From NCBI RefSeq assembly GCF_024584705.1, contig NZ_CP097384.1, positions 2,356,001 to 2,420,000 on the forward strand: a DNA stretch of 64,000 bases, given 5' to 3'. The position numbers and the translations under genes were made by a program. The notes under the pieces are model-generated. The model searched no databases. It saw only the letters and a list, made by a program, of their open reading frames with translations, and had not been told where the DNA came from. Of this stretch, positions 14,065-21,332 are shown in pieces (position 1 is the first letter of the stretch; each line of letters opens with the position of its first letter). Origin of the DNA: Blastopirellula sp. J2-11. Its GTDB lineage: Bacteria > Planctomycetota > Planctomycetia > Pirellulales > Pirellulaceae.

Positions 14065-14251
14065 CTTTTGTGATCGCATGCTCCGCTAGAAATTTCGCCG
14101 AGTTCATGGCGAGGGCTTCCCCCTCGAAGCGACGCTTCTTTGCCGTTCGCCATGAAATAACCCGCGATTGTTCGGGGCTCTTCGGCATTTCGGTCGCTCG
14201 TCTCGGACGACGATGCGTTTCGCCGACCACTTGATTTGGGAGAATCGACGG

Positions 14252-15580
14252 ATGGTTCAGGGTTTGGAATTTGACTTAAAGCATGTCGTTATGTCCAACA
14301 CGACATTCGGCCCAGAAGAGATTCGCCAGATCATTCGCCTGCTCTCGAAAGACTACGCAAGTTTCGCGGTCTTGCGCGACAGTGTGGCCGAGTTGGAGTC
14401 GAGCCAGCCTGAGCGATCGCCTGCGACGAATGTTCGCTTGGGCGTCTGCATGTATATCTTGGGCCGCAACGTTCGCTCGATCGACGTCTTGTCGAACGCG
14501 GACGGCGGAGCGCTGGCCCACTTCTATCTCGGTAAAGCGAATTACGCTTTGAACCGATTTGACAAAGCGATCGAAGGTTACCAGGCCGCGCAAACCGCCG
14601 GTTACAACCGTGATGATTGCCAATTGGCGATCGTCGAAGCGCTTCGCGCCGCCAATCGATACGACGTAGCGATGAAGCAGCTAGACGACCTGTTTGGTCC
14701 GATTGAGCAAACGGCCGACTATTTGTATCAACGTGGAGCGACGGTCGCCGCGTTGGGAGGGAATCCTTCCGAGGTCGTCGCGTTGTACGAACGAGCTGTC
14801 GAATCCGATTCGACGCATGCCGGCGCCTTGTTTGGCCTGGCGCTCGAAAATGATCGCCGCGGCAACGACGAAGAAGCGCTCGGCTACTATCAAAAGGCGG
14901 CTGCTTGCTTCCCGACGCACGTCGGCACGCTGCTCAATCTGGGCATCCTGTCGGAAGATCGCGGCGAGTACGAACGTGCCGCTCATTGTTATTCGCGCAT
15001 CCTGGACGCCTATCCGAACGAACCTCGCGCCAGCATGTTTCTCAAAGACGCCCAGGCGTCGAGCGACATGTTCTATGACGAAGAAGCCCAGAAGAAGCGA
15101 GATCGGATCGCTCAGGTCCTCAGCATTCCGGTCACCGACTTCGAATTGTCGGTTCGCAGCCGCAATTGTCTGCAGAAGATGGGAATCCAGACGCTAGGCG
15201 ATCTGTCCCGTTGCTCGGAGCAAGAGTTGCTCTCCAGTAAGAACTTTGGTGAGACCTCGCTCGTTGAAATTCGCGAGATGCTCAACTCGAAGGGCTTAGA
15301 GTTGGGCCAGTTCTCAGCCGACAAAGGACAGCCGGAACCGACTATCGAAGTTGCCGGGCTTTCGCCGGATGAGCAAGCGTTGCTGGATCGCCCGATTTCG
15401 GAACTCAACCTGTCGGTTCGTGCTCGCAAATGTATGGTTCGCTTGGGGATTTCGACGATCGGCGAACTGGTCCGTCGCACCGGCGACGAACTGCTGGAGT
15501 GCAAAAACTTCGGCGTGACCAGCTTGAACGAAGTTCGCGAAAAGTTGACCGCCAGCAACCTGAAGTTGCGCGGCGACTAG
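14252..15580 (+). CDS. TPR protein with two RNA polymerase alpha-CTD-like domains
   Basis: A 442-residue protein starting MVQGLEFDLKHVVMS; this start has gggag upstream, unlike the earlier in-frame ATG. Residues about 75-290 are tetratricopeptide helices (AHFYLGKANYALNRFDKAIEG; HAGALFGLALENDRRGND). Two copies of the alpha-CTD helix-hairpin fold follow. The first has FELSVRSRNCLQKMGIQTLG and KNFGETSLVEIREML. The second has LNLSVRARKCMVRLGIST and KNFGVTSLNEVREKL. The first copy keeps residues matching E. coli alpha Arg265, Asn268, Gly296 and Ser299. It may contact DNA or polymerase, but its role is unknown. It lies between tRNA-Thr and tgt. Confidence 0.85.
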   Translation: MVQGLEFDLKHVVMSNTTFGPEEIRQIIRLLSKDYASFAVLRDSVAELESSQPERSPATNVRLGVCMYILGRNVRSIDVLSNADGGALAHFYLGKANYALNRFDKAIEGYQAAQTAGYNRDDCQLAIVEALRAANRYDVAMKQLDDLFGPIEQTADYLYQRGATVAALGGNPSEVVALYERAVESDSTHAGALFGLALENDRRGNDEEALGYYQKAAACFPTHVGTLLNLGILSEDRGEYERAAHCYSRILDAYPNEPRASMFLKDAQASSDMFYDEEAQKKRDRIAQVLSIPVTDFELSVRSRNCLQKMGIQTLGDLSRCSEQELLSSKNFGETSLVEIREMLNSKGLELGQFSADKGQPEPTIEVAGLSPDEQALLDRPISELNLSVRARKCMVRLGISTIGELVRRTGDELLECKNFGVTSLNEVREKLTASNLKLRGD

Positions 15581-15733: not shown

Positions 15734-16861
15734 GTGACATCTTTGAGCGAGCGACCATTTCGCTACGATTTGCTGCAGCAAAGCGGCCAAGCGCGACGCG
15801 GCGTATTTCATACGCCGCATGGTCCGGTGCAGACGCCTGCTTTTATGCCGGTTGGTACGCAGGGAACGGTCAAAGGGCTGGAGATCGGGCTGGTTCGTGA
15901 AACCGGCGCCGAGATGATCTTGGGGAACACCTATCATCTCTCACTCCGACCTGGTGAGCAGATCGTCCGCGAGCTGGGAGGGCTGCATGAGTTCTCTGGC
16001 TGGCGCGGGCCGATCCTAACCGACAGCGGCGGGTTCCAGATCTTCAGTCTCGCCCAGATGGCGAAAATCACCGAAGAAGGCGCCGTTTTCCGGTCGCATA
16101 TTGACGGCTCGAAGGTCGCTTTGTCGCCAGAACGTTCGATCGAAATCCAAGAGGCGCTCGGCAGCGACGTGGCGATGGTGCTGGACCATGTGGTCGCATT
16201 GCCGAACGAAGCGGAGGTGATTCGTCAGGCATGTGATCGCTCGATTCGCTGGGCCGCGCGCTGTCAGCAGGCGGCGACGCGCGACGATCAGGCGCAGTTT
16301 GCTATTGTTCAGGGGGGGCTCGACGAAAAACTTCGTATTTATTGTGCAGAAGAATTGGGAAAGTTGGAGTTCCCCGGTTACGCAATCGGCGGGCTTAGCG
16401 TCGGTGAGCCGCCGCCCGAGATGTATCGCATTTTGGACGCGACTTGCCCGGTGTTGCCGGCGGACCGTCCGCGCTATCTGATGGGGGTTGGGCGTCCCGA
16501 GGATTTGTTGGAAGGAGTGCGTCGCGGCGTTGATTTGTTTGACTGCGTGATGCCGACCCGCAACGGCCGCAATGCGCTGGCGTTTACCGACGAAGGGACG
16601 CTCAGACTGCGTAACGCCAAGTATCAGACCGATAAGCGACCGATCTCGCCGACTTCACCAGAGCGCGTTCGCCAACATAGCCGGGGCTATATCCGACATT
16701 TATTCATGGCGAAAGAGATGCTGGGGCCCATTTTATTAACGCTGCAAAACCTGGCCTACTATCAACAATTGATGGCCGGAGCGCGTCAGGCGATCGAAGA
16801 AGATCGCTTTGAAGCCTTTTATGAGCAGAAGATGAACTCCTGGCGAAACGGTGATGAATGA
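15734..16861 (+). CDS. tgt: tRNA-guanine transglycosylase (queuine tRNA-ribosyltransferase)
   Basis: A 375-residue TIM-barrel enzyme that exchanges G34 for preQ1 in GUN-anticodon tRNAs. The start is GTG. Catalytic residues are present: Asp97 in [13 protein letters not shown] and nucleophile Asp270 in [16 protein letters not shown]. Tgt proteins normally carry C-x-C-x2-C plus His as zinc ligands near the C-terminus. Here the segment following [12 protein letters not shown] reads [20 protein letters not shown], with no cysteines, although the His remains. The usual D-E-C of the base pocket is replaced by Asp-His-Val at 151-153. The gene leads the classical tgt-yajC-secDF cluster. Confidence 0.95.
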
Positions 16862-17044
16862 GCCGTGTCGCCGGCGGTCGACGGCATTGCTGCTATTGCC
16901 GTCATTTTTGTGAAGTCTTATTATGTTGAGTTTCACGTCCTTAATCGGACCATGCCTTGAGGCGGTCGAACTTTCTGCGGAAAGGCCGACGCCGCGCCTT
17001 CCCGCAGCTGGGGAGTGCGGAAACCACGGGAAAGTGATAGCGCT

Positions 17045-17437
17045 GTGGATTTGACTGCTACCTACTTCGTACTATTCGCGCAAGCGGCCCCCAAGCCGGA
17101 AGCGAGCGTACTCGAGTCCCTCATGTGGTTGGCTCCGGCCGCTTTGTTGCTGATTGGTTTTTTCCTTTTGATGCGCCCAGAACAAAAAAAGCGCAAAGAA
17201 ATGGATGAAATGATCGCCAACTTGAAGAAGAACGATCGCATCGAGACGATCGGCGGCATCCTGGCGACCGTGGTGAGCGTGAAAAAAGATCAAGGCGAAC
17301 TCGTTGTCCGAATCGACGAAAAGACGAACGCCGAAATGCGATTAAAAGTGCGCGCTATCGCGCGTGTGCTGGACAAGAGTGATAAAAGCGGCAAAAGCGA
17401 TCAGCAAGACGAAGACAAAGCTTCGGCTGGATCATAA
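17045..17437 (+). CDS. yajC: Preprotein translocase subunit YajC
   Basis: A 130-residue single-span inner-membrane protein. A transmembrane helix (about 26-44: MWLAPAALLLIGFFLLM) is followed by the YajC signature RPEQKKRKEMDEMIANLKKN and a small cytoplasmic beta domain (DRIETIGGILATVVSVKKD). The C-terminal tail is Lys/Asp/Ser-rich. YajC associates with SecDF in the holotranslocon. The GTG start used here has gggaaag upstream; another GTG 30 bp earlier is possible. It lies between tgt and secDF, the standard gene order. Confidence 0.92.
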   Translation: MDLTATYFVLFAQAAPKPEASVLESLMWLAPAALLLIGFFLLMRPEQKKRKEMDEMIANLKKNDRIETIGGILATVVSVKKDQGELVVRIDEKTNAEMRLKVRAIARVLDKSDKSGKSDQQDEDKASAGS

Positions 17438-17489
17438 AACACGAATTCGGCGGCAAATCGGCCGCCGTGCGATACTGGAGTTATCGAAG

Positions 17490-20400
17490 ATGCAAAAATA
17501 CGTGGCAATGACGCTCGCGTTGGTTTTGACGGCTGCGGCCATGGCATGGGGCCCTGACGTCAACTCAGAAAGCTGGCTTGGAGACATCTCGCTGACCGCT
17601 CTAGCGTCAGCGCAGGATGAAGTGCTGACGGCTCCTGGTGATCCGGTGGCGCCGACGATCACGACTACCGAGGCCCCAGTCGCCGCCGATGGCGAAAATG
17701 GTTCGTCTCTCTTAAAGCTGGTGATGGCGCTCGCGATCTTGGGCGTTCCGATCGCCGCAGGCATCTTGCTCGCCAATACGCTGCGCATGCCGACTTACGG
17801 TTGGCGGTTGGCGGTGATCTTCTGCACGATGGTTATCGGCATTACCGCGGTCGTTCGTTATTGGCCGCCGAAGTTCGGGATCGACCTCCAGGGGGGCGTG
17901 ATCCTGATCTACGAAATCGACGAAGACGAAACGAAGATCTATCTGGCCGAACAGAAAACGACCGGTGAGGATCAGAAGCCTGCTGAGACTGAGCCGACCG
18001 CCGACCAAGATGGCGGAACGGCCTACAACATGAACGAGTTGCTCGCGAATCTGAAGAATCGCGTCAACCCGTCCGGCGTCCGTGAAGTGGTCATTCGCGC
18101 TTACGGCAGTAAGCAAGTCGAAGTCATCATTCCTAACGCCGAGTCAGCCGACCTGGCGGTGATTAAGGACAAGATCACGACGGCCGGCATGCTCGAATTC
18201 ATGATTGTGGCCAACGCCAATGATCATGTCACCCTGTTGAATCGTGCTCGTGAATCGAAGCAACGCGGCGAACGTTACGTCGTCAGCTCGACAGGGCGAG
18301 CCGAAGGAAAATGGGTCGGCATTCGCAAAGATGAAGATGGCGAGTACCAGTGGCCCAATTTTGGCTCGTTTAACGCGTCCACTGATGGCTCGCCGGTCCA
18401 AACTTCGGCAGGCTTTCTCGTTCGCGGCGGGCAATCGACCGGACAGCCGCTGCAAGTTTTGATGAAGATGGAGCCGAAGCCGCTCACCGGCGGTTATCTC
18501 ACCGCGGCTCGTCGAACCTACGATACGAACAGCGGAGGAGGACTCGCGGTCGAGTTCAACCTGAACAGTACGGGCGCTTCGCTGATGTCGAAGCTGACCC
18601 GCGACAATTTGCCCGACGATACCCGCGAGCGCCAATTGGGCATCGTGATGGATGACTACATCGTTTCGGCGCCCTCCGTGCAAGGCGTGATCGGTGATCG
18701 CGGCATTATCACCGGTAAGTTTACGGAAGCCGATATTGAAAAGCTGACCGGCGTGTTGCAAGCCGGTAAATTGCCGGTCGTGCTTCGCAAAGAACCGATC
18801 AGCGAACAGACGATCAGCGCTACGCTGGGTGACGACACCATCCGCAAGGGCCAATGGGCGGTCGGGATCAGTCTGTCGTTGGTCTTGGTGTTTATGGCGA
18901 TCTACTATCGGGTCGCCGGTTTGGTCGCGTGTGCTGCGGTGCTGTTGAACCTGGTGTTGATTTTGGCGGCGATGATTTTGTTCAACGCTGACCTGACGCT
19001 GCCGGGGATCGCCGGTTTGGTGCTAACCGTCGGCATGTCGGTCGACGCCAACGTTTTGATTTACGAACGTATCCGCGAAGAGCTCAATCATGGCGCTTCG
19101 TTACGCATGGCGTTGGTCAACGGTTTCAGCAAAGCGACCACGACCATCGTGGATGCAAACTTGACGACATTAATCACCGCGCTGGTTCTGTATCGCATCG
19201 GTACCGATCAGGTTCGCGGATTCGCCGTGACATTGGTTTTGGGTATTGTGATGAGCATGTTCACCGCGATCTTCTGCTCGCGGGTCTTCTTTGACATCGC
19301 CGAGAAGAAGCGTTGGCTGACGACCTTGAAGTTTATGCCGACCGCGAGCGGAGCGAAGTTTGACTTCCTCGGCAAGCGTCAAATGGCGATGAGCATTTCG
19401 CTGGTCTTGATTGTTATCGGCGTGATCGCCGTCGGCGCTCGCGGCAAGACGATCTTCGATATCGACTTCAACGGCGGTTCCTCGGTTCAGGTTTATCTGA
19501 AAGAAGCGTTGCCGATCGCGACGGTCCGAGAAATGGTCAGCGAAAAGTTGCCGGACGTTTCGATCAGCTCGGTGACGCTGGAAGGGAAAGAAAACCAGAT
19601 CTATAAGATCGACACTTCGATGACCGGGCTGGGGAAACTCGGCTCGATCAAAGTGACCGATCGGACCGGCAAGTCGGCCACCGTCGACCTCAGCGACGCC
19701 GATTCGCTGCGTGAAATTACGGTTGCAATTAACAACTCGGGAACGCAATTGAACGCTGACCTGACTGCAAATCGCGGCGGTATCCAGATTCGCGATACTT
19801 CCAAATCCACCAGCGGCACGATGTCAATCGAAAGTGCTGGCGATTTGAAGACGGCCGAGCGTCTGAATTTGAAATTTGCGGTCGACGAGCCTCGCTATGT
19901 GACCGGAGATATTCCGGAAGGAGTGCAGGTTGTTCAGGCCGAACTGGAAAGCATCTTCCGCACCGAAAGCGGCGAGAGCATGCTGATCATGCATAACGTC
20001 TCGGTGAGCGAAGTTGACGCTATCGGCGGTAGTGAAGAGCCGGAAACTACGGCGCCACCCGAAGCGACCAGCGAAGCCGCACCGGTAGAACCGGCTGCTG
20101 ACGCACAATCGAGCAATCGTACGCGTCGCACCGATTTGCCGAGCGACGAGATGTTGGCGTTGGCTCAAGAAGGCGAAATCGAACCGCCGGCCGAAACGCC
20201 TGCTCCGAAAGAGGAGCCGCCCAAGACGGAAGCTCCGATGAGCGAGACTCCGAAACCGGAAACCCCGGCCGAACCTGCGAAAGCAGAGCCCGCCAAGGAA
20301 GAACCGAAAACCGAAACTCCTGCGGAGCCTGCGAAAGAAGAACCGCAGCCAGAAACTCCGGCTGCAGAAATGAAAGAGCCGGCGCCGAAGGCGGAAGTTC

Positions 20401-21332
20401 CTGCCGCCGAACCGCCGGCAACGGAAGTTCCGCTGGAAGAGACGGACCCGGATGAAGAGCCGATCATCGACGCAGGCACGAAGATCGCCCCGTTGCAGTT
20501 CGAGTCGACTCTTTCGTTTGACGAGAAAATCACGGCCCAAACCTTGCAGAGCCTGGTTTTGCAAGCGGCCGACCAATTGGGAATCGAACGTCCGCAAATC
20601 CACCTGCTTCGCGATGGTCTGGCGATTCCGCTCGACAGCAGCGTCAGCGGCACTGAGTGGACGGTTCAACTCTCTGGCGCCAAAGAGAACGCCAGCAAGA
20701 TTTTTGATTCGATTCGTAGCGAATTGTCGAGCACGCCGGTTTGGCCGTCGTCCAGCAACATTGGCGCTCAGGTCGCCGGCGATATGCAGCAAATGGCGAT
20801 CTTCGCTTTGATTTTGAGCCTGGTCGGCGTGGTGGCCTACATTTGGTTCCGTTTTCAGAATCTTGCGTTCGGTCTGGCGGCCGTCGTGGCGCTGGTGCAT
20901 GACGTGTTGATCACGTTGGGCGCATTAGCACTGACAACCTGGTTGCAGTACGCCTTCGGCTTTTTGCAGATCGACGAGATGAAGATCAGCTTGCCGGTGG
21001 TCGCCGCCTTCCTGACGCTGATCGGTTACTCGCTCAACGATACGATCGTCGTCTTTGACCGTATTCGCGAGGTCCGTGGCAAGAGCCATGAATTGACGAT
21101 TGACATGGTCAACGCGTCGATCAATCAGACGTTGGGCCGTACGATTCTGACGTCGTTAACCACGTTTATCGTGGTGGTGATTCTCTTCTTCCTGGGCGGT
21201 GAAGGAGTTCATAGCTTTTCATTCGCCTTGGTGGTTGGCATCTTCGTCGGTACTTACAGCTCGATCTTCATCGCTTCGCCGGTGTTGGTCTGGTTGATGA
21301 ATCGCGAGAAGAAGCGCGGCGCCGCGGTCTAG
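17490..21332 (+). CDS. secDF: Fused SecD-SecF protein-export membrane protein with large Pro/Glu/Ala insert
   Basis: A 1280-residue fusion. Extra N-terminal membrane segments (about 5-20, 73-95, 103-122) precede the SecD part, whose P1 domain starts with FGIDLQGGVILIYEI and whose membrane block includes LPGIAGLVLTVGMSVDANVLIYERIREEL. SecF starts near 640 with a helix and FDIDFNGGSSVQVYL. Its membrane block near the end has the matching FLTLIGYSLNDTIVVFDRIRE. SecDF uses the proton gradient to pull proteins across the inner membrane. The SecF periplasmic part is about 430 residues, far larger than usual, and holds a linker of EPAKEEPKTETPAEP-type repeats (about 845-985). The ATG chosen follows ctggag and begins MQKYVAMTLALVL. 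Confidence 0.95.
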   Translation: MQKYVAMTLALVLTAAAMAWGPDVNSESWLGDISLTALASAQDEVLTAPGDPVAPTITTTEAPVAADGENGSSLLKLVMALAILGVPIAAGILLANTLRMPTYGWRLAVIFCTMVIGITAVVRYWPPKFGIDLQGGVILIYEIDEDETKIYLAEQKTTGEDQKPAETEPTADQDGGTAYNMNELLANLKNRVNPSGVREVVIRAYGSKQVEVIIPNAESADLAVIKDKITTAGMLEFMIVANANDHVTLLNRARESKQRGERYVVSSTGRAEGKWVGIRKDEDGEYQWPNFGSFNASTDGSPVQTSAGFLVRGGQSTGQPLQVLMKMEPKPLTGGYLTAARRTYDTNSGGGLAVEFNLNSTGASLMSKLTRDNLPDDTRERQLGIVMDDYIVSAPSVQGVIGDRGIITGKFTEADIEKLTGVLQAGKLPVVLRKEPISEQTISATLGDDTIRKGQWAVGISLSLVLVFMAIYYRVAGLVACAAVLLNLVLILAAMILFNADLTLPGIAGLVLTVGMSVDANVLIYERIREELNHGASLRMALVNGFSKATTTIVDANLTTLITALVLYRIGTDQVRGFAVTLVLGIVMSMFTAIFCSRVFFDIAEKKRWLTTLKFMPTASGAKFDFLGKRQMAMSISLVLIVIGVIAVGARGKTIFDIDFNGGSSVQVYLKEALPIATVREMVSEKLPDVSISSVTLEGKENQIYKIDTSMTGLGKLGSIKVTDRTGKSATVDLSDADSLREITVAINNSGTQLNADLTANRGGIQIRDTSKSTSGTMSIESAGDLKTAERLNLKFAVDEPRYVTGDIPEGVQVVQAELESIFRTESGESMLIMHNVSVSEVDAIGGSEEPETTAPPEATSEAAPVEPAADAQSSNRTRRTDLPSDEMLALAQEGEIEPPAETPAPKEEPPKTEAPMSETPKPETPAEPAKAEPAKEEPKTETPAEPAKEEPQPETPAAEMKEPAPKAEVPAAEPPATEVPLEETDPDEEPIIDAGTKIAPLQFESTLSFDEKITAQTLQSLVLQAADQLGIERPQIHLLRDGLAIPLDSSVSGTEWTVQLSGAKENASKIFDSIRSELSSTPVWPSSSNIGAQVAGDMQQMAIFALILSLVGVVAYIWFRFQNLAFGLAAVVALVHDVLITLGALALTTWLQYAFGFLQIDEMKISLPVVAAFLTLIGYSLNDTIVVFDRIREVRGKSHELTIDMVNASINQTLGRTILTSLTTFIVVVILFFLGGEGVHSFSFALVVGIFVGTYSSIFIASPVLVWLMNREKKRGAAV

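Follow-up and report, generated by a model that had tools for sequence, protein, structure and literature searches.

Can a tRNA-guanine transglycosylase (Tgt) do without its zinc ion? The question is raised by the tgt gene of Blastopirellula sp. J2-11, which lies in a window of 64,000 nucleotides (the whole stretch of DNA analysed here; all positions are counted within it). The zinc site is described as one of two hallmarks of TGTs (PMC6165067), and PMC9508795 states that zinc is required for TGT activity; a 1995 study of the E. coli enzyme is one of the papers it cites for this. An initial annotation of the gene, made from the sequence alone, had nevertheless reported a Tgt lacking the zinc-binding cysteines.

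The tgt gene

The gene, two of its neighbours and its catalytic residues are located as follows.

15734..16861, + strand: tgt, zinc-less tRNA-guanine(34) transglycosylase, 375 residues (PF01702, 1.2e-150; TIGR00430, 466.9 bits)
17015..17437, + strand: yajC, downstream of tgt, identified by sequence and position
17364..21332, + strand: secDF (fusion ORF), downstream of tgt, identified by sequence; it served as a phylogenetic marker
16022..16024, + strand: D97, catalytic Asp (Z. mobilis D102), intact, from alignment to Z. mobilis Tgt
16541..16543, + strand: D270, catalytic Asp (Z. mobilis D280), intact, from alignment to Z. mobilis Tgt

The listed start is a GTG at 15734, and the real start may be a few codons off. 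The region 15734-16861 reads through without a frameshift, and both catalytic aspartates are in place; on these two points the initial annotation was right. D97 and D270 are invariant in all 50 alignment rows. Loss of a catalytic aspartate marks the non-catalytic QTRT2 type (PMC6165067), a trait absent from the J2-11 protein. The score against TIGR00430, the equivalog model of bacterial Tgt, exceeds the curated cut-off of 306.75, and that against TIGR00432 (archaeosine TgtA) is 107.1 bits, below the cut-off of 350. The 6.43-Mb J2-11 genome contains no other PF01702 match.

Directly upstream of tgt, an ORF at 14168-15577 (+) encodes an unusual fusion protein, in which TPR repeats precede a tandem pair of domains resembling the RNA polymerase alpha C-terminal domain; rpoA models match it in two stretches.

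The zinc site

We take the zinc ligands of Z. mobilis Tgt to be C318, C320, C323 and H349. Residues were matched by phmmer alignment, with the Z. mobilis Tgt chain of 4e2v (a Y106F/C158V mutant) as the reference. This alignment has a gap at the third cysteine, where R313 was placed by close relatives.

16655..16657, + strand: S308, for the first Cys of C-x-C-x2-C (Z. mobilis C318), from alignments
16661..16663, + strand: E310, for the second Cys (Z. mobilis C320), from alignments
16670..16672, + strand: R313, for the third Cys (Z. mobilis C323), from alignments to close relatives
16697..16699, + strand: H322, dimer-interface residue, His of YIRHL (Z. mobilis H333), from the phmmer alignment
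16745..16747, + strand: Q338, for the zinc-ligand His (Z. mobilis H349), from alignments

In the human enzyme, the ligands are C317, C319, C322 and a histidine (PMC6165067). The earlier reading was that the cysteines are gone and only the histidine is kept. The three cysteines are indeed replaced, by S308, E310 and R313, but the remaining histidine, H322, is no ligand. Its Z. mobilis counterpart H333 lies at the dimer interface, in an aromatic hot spot formed with W326, Y330 and F92 (PMC5395182). Because H322 is an interface residue and Q338 occupies the true ligand position, the loss is complete and all four ligands are replaced. We therefore file the protein as a zinc-less Tgt variant rather than as a standard member of the family.

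Distribution of zinc-less Tgt

Of the 226 Pirellulaceae genomes in which Tgt was matched, 112 contributed one locus each, covering 60 of 68 genera. Zinc-less Tgt was found in 12 of the 60 genera and zinc-type Tgt in 48; no genus was mixed, with 49 of them sampled once and 11 more than once. By genomes, the sample holds 54 zinc-less and 58 zinc-type Tgts, a count that is not a prevalence because 29 loci were fetched for their likeness to zinc-less Tgt. Cysteines at the three positions are nearly all-or-nothing: 58 proteins have three, 53 have none and a single one (L224 of genome G482), classed as zinc-less throughout, has one.

In Blastopirellula, the cysteine loss and the His-to-Gln change are found in all four genomes, including B. 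marina DSM 3645. In the sister genus g2, the three cysteines are lost and the histidine is kept in all eight genomes that gave a Tgt match; a ninth genome, which is incomplete, yielded none. The g2 state is an apparent intermediate. The ligand histidine is kept in 49 of the 54 zinc-less genomes and was lost twice, in Blastopirellula and in G404, where a second His-to-Gln change occurred within another zinc-less clade.

A wider search with the J2-11 Tgt recovered 176 named loci; of the 80 best, 78 have a canonical zinc site. The two exceptions are B. marina DSM 3645 (98% identical) and a Mariniblastus. In Planctomycetota beyond Pirellulaceae, the site is canonical in 56 of the 57 Tgts viewed, a set biased towards the canonical form in that 30 of its members are the best-scoring ones. 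One Tgt from another family of the phylum (L261, genome G004) has the spacing C-x3-C-C (DSACGGPCCSR) and keeps the ligand histidine; it may bind zinc in another geometry.

Alignment with other planctomycete Tgts had been suggested at the outset, with the idea that close relatives with the cysteines in place would betray a sequencing error or a local mutation. Such relatives exist, and form the majority, but error is not indicated because entire genera share the loss in every genome examined, and it has at least two origins. Nor is it confined to J2-11. With the same or nearly the same residues in all four Blastopirellula genomes and loss in 12 of 60 genera, a sequencing error or strain-specific mutation is extremely improbable.

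Number of zinc losses

There were 115 candidate rows. A quick tgt tree was built from 98 of them, leaving aside 14 rows of g253 (L216 being partial) and three of g270. It places the zinc-less proteins in clades A (g1, g2), B (g253, g214, g245, g228, g230, g268, g218, g252) and C (g261, g272). Clade B, with Mariniblastus and its relatives, is the largest. The cysteine replacements are S/P/A and S/E/R in clade A and I-V-M/T/S or A in most of clade B.

The quick tree implies three changes of zinc state. Its search was poor, since a tree constrained to a single zinc-less clade was 48 log units better, and in an AU test on tgt the single clade is not rejected (p 0.915). A careful tree of 81 rows, from which 16 near-copies and the long-branched L238 were further removed, gives four changes and separates g230 from the other members of clade B. 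As the tgt tree alone did not settle the number of losses, secDF was added. The resulting tree has 36 rows, 15 of them zinc-less, with clade C represented by G482 only. It omits L271, L272 and L279 (no SecDF match), L277, L282, L012, L051 and L069 (short SecDF match), and L002 and L006 (copies of rows included). A careful search with secDF added gives three changes, of which the starred branches alone force two. A single origin appears in none of 200 bootstrap trees, and the grouping of all 15 zinc-less rows in a single clade is rejected (p-AU 0.0019); clades A and B as one clade are not rejected (p 0.116). By these alignments, the number of losses in Pirellulaceae is thus at least two, and probably three.

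Base pocket and substrate

Two elements of the base pocket were located by alignment.

16184..16192, + strand: D151-H152-V153, base pocket (Z. mobilis D156-E157-C158)
16400..16402, + strand: V223, preQ1-type pocket residue (Z. mobilis V233), kept

The initial annotation had read the pocket as changed from D-E-C to D-H-V, and had offered two outcomes of the zinc loss, a fold stable without zinc or a different substrate. The pocket change is real but it is a family-wide trait. Among the 112 Pirellulaceae Tgts, zinc-type ones included, 99 have DHV, 10 DHL and three DQV. Because D-H-V is common to zinc-type relatives, it is unlinked to the zinc loss, and as a mark of a new substrate it was rejected.

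A changed substrate would mean another base or another RNA, with the zinc loss as part of a remodelled RNA-binding surface. Human QTRT1 is a catalytic subunit that incorporates queuine. It resembles the J2-11 Tgt at two positions, having Val for C158 and Phe for Y106 (PMC6165067), and the former likeness would fit such a change. We regard a changed substrate as very unlikely. Zinc-type relatives have the same pocket, and a Z. mobilis Y106F/C158V mutant was deposited with preQ1 (4e2v). Human QTRT1 differs from the J2-11 protein in that it keeps its zinc and has a Gly at the Val233 position (PMC6165067); J2-11 has V223 there, and Val occupies this position in all 112 Pirellulaceae Tgts. Queuine-salvaging TGTs typically have GG[LS][AS]G (PMC11570991). 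The pocket residues of the J2-11 Tgt give no sign of queuine use, and V223 points to preQ1 as the substrate. The J2-11 genome also has QueC, QueF, QueA and QueG. Of the two outcomes first proposed, sequence, phylogeny, selection and the structural model thus favour the zinc-free fold, and V223 and the four pathway proteins speak against the changed substrate.

Selection and the queuosine pathway

The zinc-less Tgts might instead be decaying or inactive, the site having gone as function went. The zinc requirement reported for TGT (PMC9508795) would be in line with this, but most of what the genomes show is not, and we hold decay to be very unlikely. The frame is open and the catalytic residues are invariant. 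Between members of clade A, dN/dS is 0.026-0.043 over the whole gene. Within the 55-residue former zinc zone, it is 0-0.073 in eight of nine pairs, with dS above 1 in four of those eight; the ninth pair is saturated. Zinc state is uniform within genera as sampled, and a yajC match still lies downstream of tgt in 16 of 18 zinc-less stretches.

The preQ1-tRNA made by Tgt is the known substrate of QueA. QueA is about as frequent in zinc-less genomes (50 of 54) as in zinc-type genomes (52 of 58). The four zinc-less genomes in which it was not found (G316, G352, G426 and G427) are 77-87% complete. An intact gene kept under strong selection without the ligands suggests, on the basis of these comparisons, that the zinc of Tgt is dispensable.

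A crude motif scan of eight stretches for QueD, QueE and FolE near queC found none. The J2-11 genome has only one strong queC match; in G320, also a Blastopirellula, a second strong match (L150) lies beside an ORF that we presume to be queE.

Predicted structure and possible packing

AlphaFold2 predicts a TIM barrel with a C-terminal knuckle for the J2-11 Tgt. The mean pLDDT is 91.2, and 94-97 through the zinc zone. Compared with Z. mobilis Tgt (1efz), the model gives TM 0.95 and 1.4 Å over 371 columns; compared with 1q2r, Z 55.2 and 1.4 Å over 370 residues. Modelling of the C-terminal region, another check proposed at the outset, thus returns a confident prediction close to the Z. mobilis enzyme. 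A zinc-type relative modelled in the same way gives TM 0.96, with pLDDT 96-98 in the corresponding blocks, slightly higher than in J2-11. The confident knuckle is weak evidence because AlphaFold2 is familiar with many structures of Tgt and the alignment supplied to it was mostly zinc-type (47 of 50 rows); the program is no test of metal dependence.

The alignment columns tied most closely to zinc state, ligands aside, are 341, 312, 315, 314 and 337, all around the lost site in sequence. Three of them hold the following residues in J2-11.

16667..16669, + strand: V312; zinc-type rows have Ala (52 of 55), as does clade C, against Val in clade A and mainly Tyr in clade B
16742..16744, + strand: L337; Leu in 12 of 12 rows of clade A and in 17 of the 26 rows of clade B
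16754..16756, + strand: A341; zinc-type rows have Thr (50 of 55), zinc-less ones Ala (clade A 12 of 12, clade B 21 of 26, clade C 2 of 2)

It is possible that V312 packs in the former metal site, and from the pattern of replacements we infer local packing in place of the zinc ion. At column 315, most zinc-less proteins have Leu, Phe, Tyr or Val in place of His or Arg. Blastopirellula still has His there, so the packing idea suits the J2-11 Tgt less well than its relatives.

H315 and E310, both near the old site in Blastopirellula, could also be read as ligands in a new arrangement, with zinc or another metal still bound through other residues or a partner protein. The old ligand histidine, present in most zinc-less genomes, would fit. 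Against this, the three positions are devoid of Cys in 53 of 54 zinc-less genomes, the replacement residues vary between clades, and the histidine itself was lost twice, so we judge retained metal binding quite unlikely.

The explanation that we find most likely by a good measure is that the J2-11 Tgt is a working, metal-free preQ1-tRNA transglycosylase; catalysis, absence of metal and packing are here all deduced from sequence and model. The enzyme would replace G34 of GUN tRNAs by preQ1, using D97 and D270 in the usual mechanism. Its C-terminal knuckle would fold without metal. Along with the replacement of three cysteines and a histidine by S308, E310, R313 and Q338, the neighbours V312, L337 and A341 would have changed too, so that packing replaces the zinc ion. 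The same packing would still hold in place the helices from which the dimer interface is built and which aid tRNA binding.

Relation to known systems

Among the closest known systems is the Tgt of Zymomonas mobilis (TIGR00430; PDB 1efz and 1pud), 47-48% identical to the J2-11 protein. Bacterial Tgts of this kind and the J2-11 Tgt have in common the catalytic Asp pair, the Val233 residue and queuosine-pathway genes in the genome. J2-11 differs in the replacement of four of four zinc ligands and in DHV for DEC.

Zinc-independent paralogues are known in other families, such as DksA2 and the alternative ribosomal proteins of mycobacteria (PMC9213440, PMC5912738). As proposed for the J2-11 Tgt, a form lacking the zinc ligands takes over the task of the zinc form. 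These proteins, however, are extra copies, several of them made under zinc shortage, whereas the J2-11 Tgt is the only Tgt match of its genome. A Tgt without zinc ligands was not found in the literature searched, a search with most subscription journals outside its reach. Relative to sources that treat zinc as a hallmark or a requirement (PMC6165067, PMC9508795), the zinc-less Tgt is a new variant. Annotation rules demanding the cysteines would overlook real Tgts. The natural series of proteins with all ligands, with three Cys lost and with all four ligands lost offers a test of the role of zinc in folding, dimer formation and RNA binding.

Zinc sites of QueC, L31 and L36

Zinc sites of other proteins were surveyed in 26 genomes, 13 with zinc-less and 13 with zinc-type Tgt. 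QueC is described as binding zinc via C(x)8CxxCxxC (PMC13329287). The four cysteines are present in all four clade A and all 13 zinc-type genomes. All four are absent in seven of seven clade B genomes (L329-L335, of G348, G404, G424, G351, G405, G369 and G315) and in one of two clade C genomes (G482). In clade B, the former zinc region reads approximately TSYxPDxxGRxxGxTGSDVERILAF. The motifs SGGxDS, YxQxHxxE, VPxRN (LPARN in G482) and YPDC are kept in all eight zinc-less QueCs. Against the NCBIfam QueC cut-off of 150, G482 scores 211 and the two scanned clade B proteins score 132 and 102, so the assignment of the clade B proteins to QueC is provisional.

L31 has lost the zinc cysteines in six of seven clade B genomes (L305-L310), each with a single L31 match. 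The zinc form is kept in the seventh, G351 (L304), and the cysteines are present in the remaining 20 of the 26 genomes. One cysteine-less L31 was scanned (G424) and is of type B; type B L31 is another zinc-independent paralogue. The cysteines of L36 are kept in all 20 sequences recovered by pattern from 27 loci, eight of them from clade B.

To judge from these sequences, zinc loss in clade B extends to several proteins, not to all. Clade A keeps the zinc cysteines of QueC, L31 and L36 (4/4 each), so the idea that zinc proteins were lost in general in Blastopirellula is not supported. Of the four proteins viewed (Tgt, QueC, L31 and L36), Tgt is the only one in which Blastopirellula shows zinc loss; either zinc economy or neutral replacement may lie behind it.

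QueC and Tgt are both described as needing zinc. With the two clade B proteins devoid of zinc cysteines yet keeping their catalytic motifs, the parallel loss raises the question of whether structural zinc was shed from a whole tRNA-modification pathway. It is quite conceivable, although we would stop just short of calling it probable, that the queuosine pathway itself was rid of zinc. Blastopirellula would then have freed only Tgt, as far as tested. If true, the structural zincs of QueC and Tgt are replaceable, and zinc economy may have been the selective reason for their removal.

The QueC of G482 (L326) is of a different type, and its zinc cysteines are also gone: HTDYYGNRDEKHEWGYGRLDN. From its sequence, the cysteine loss in this protein looks independent.
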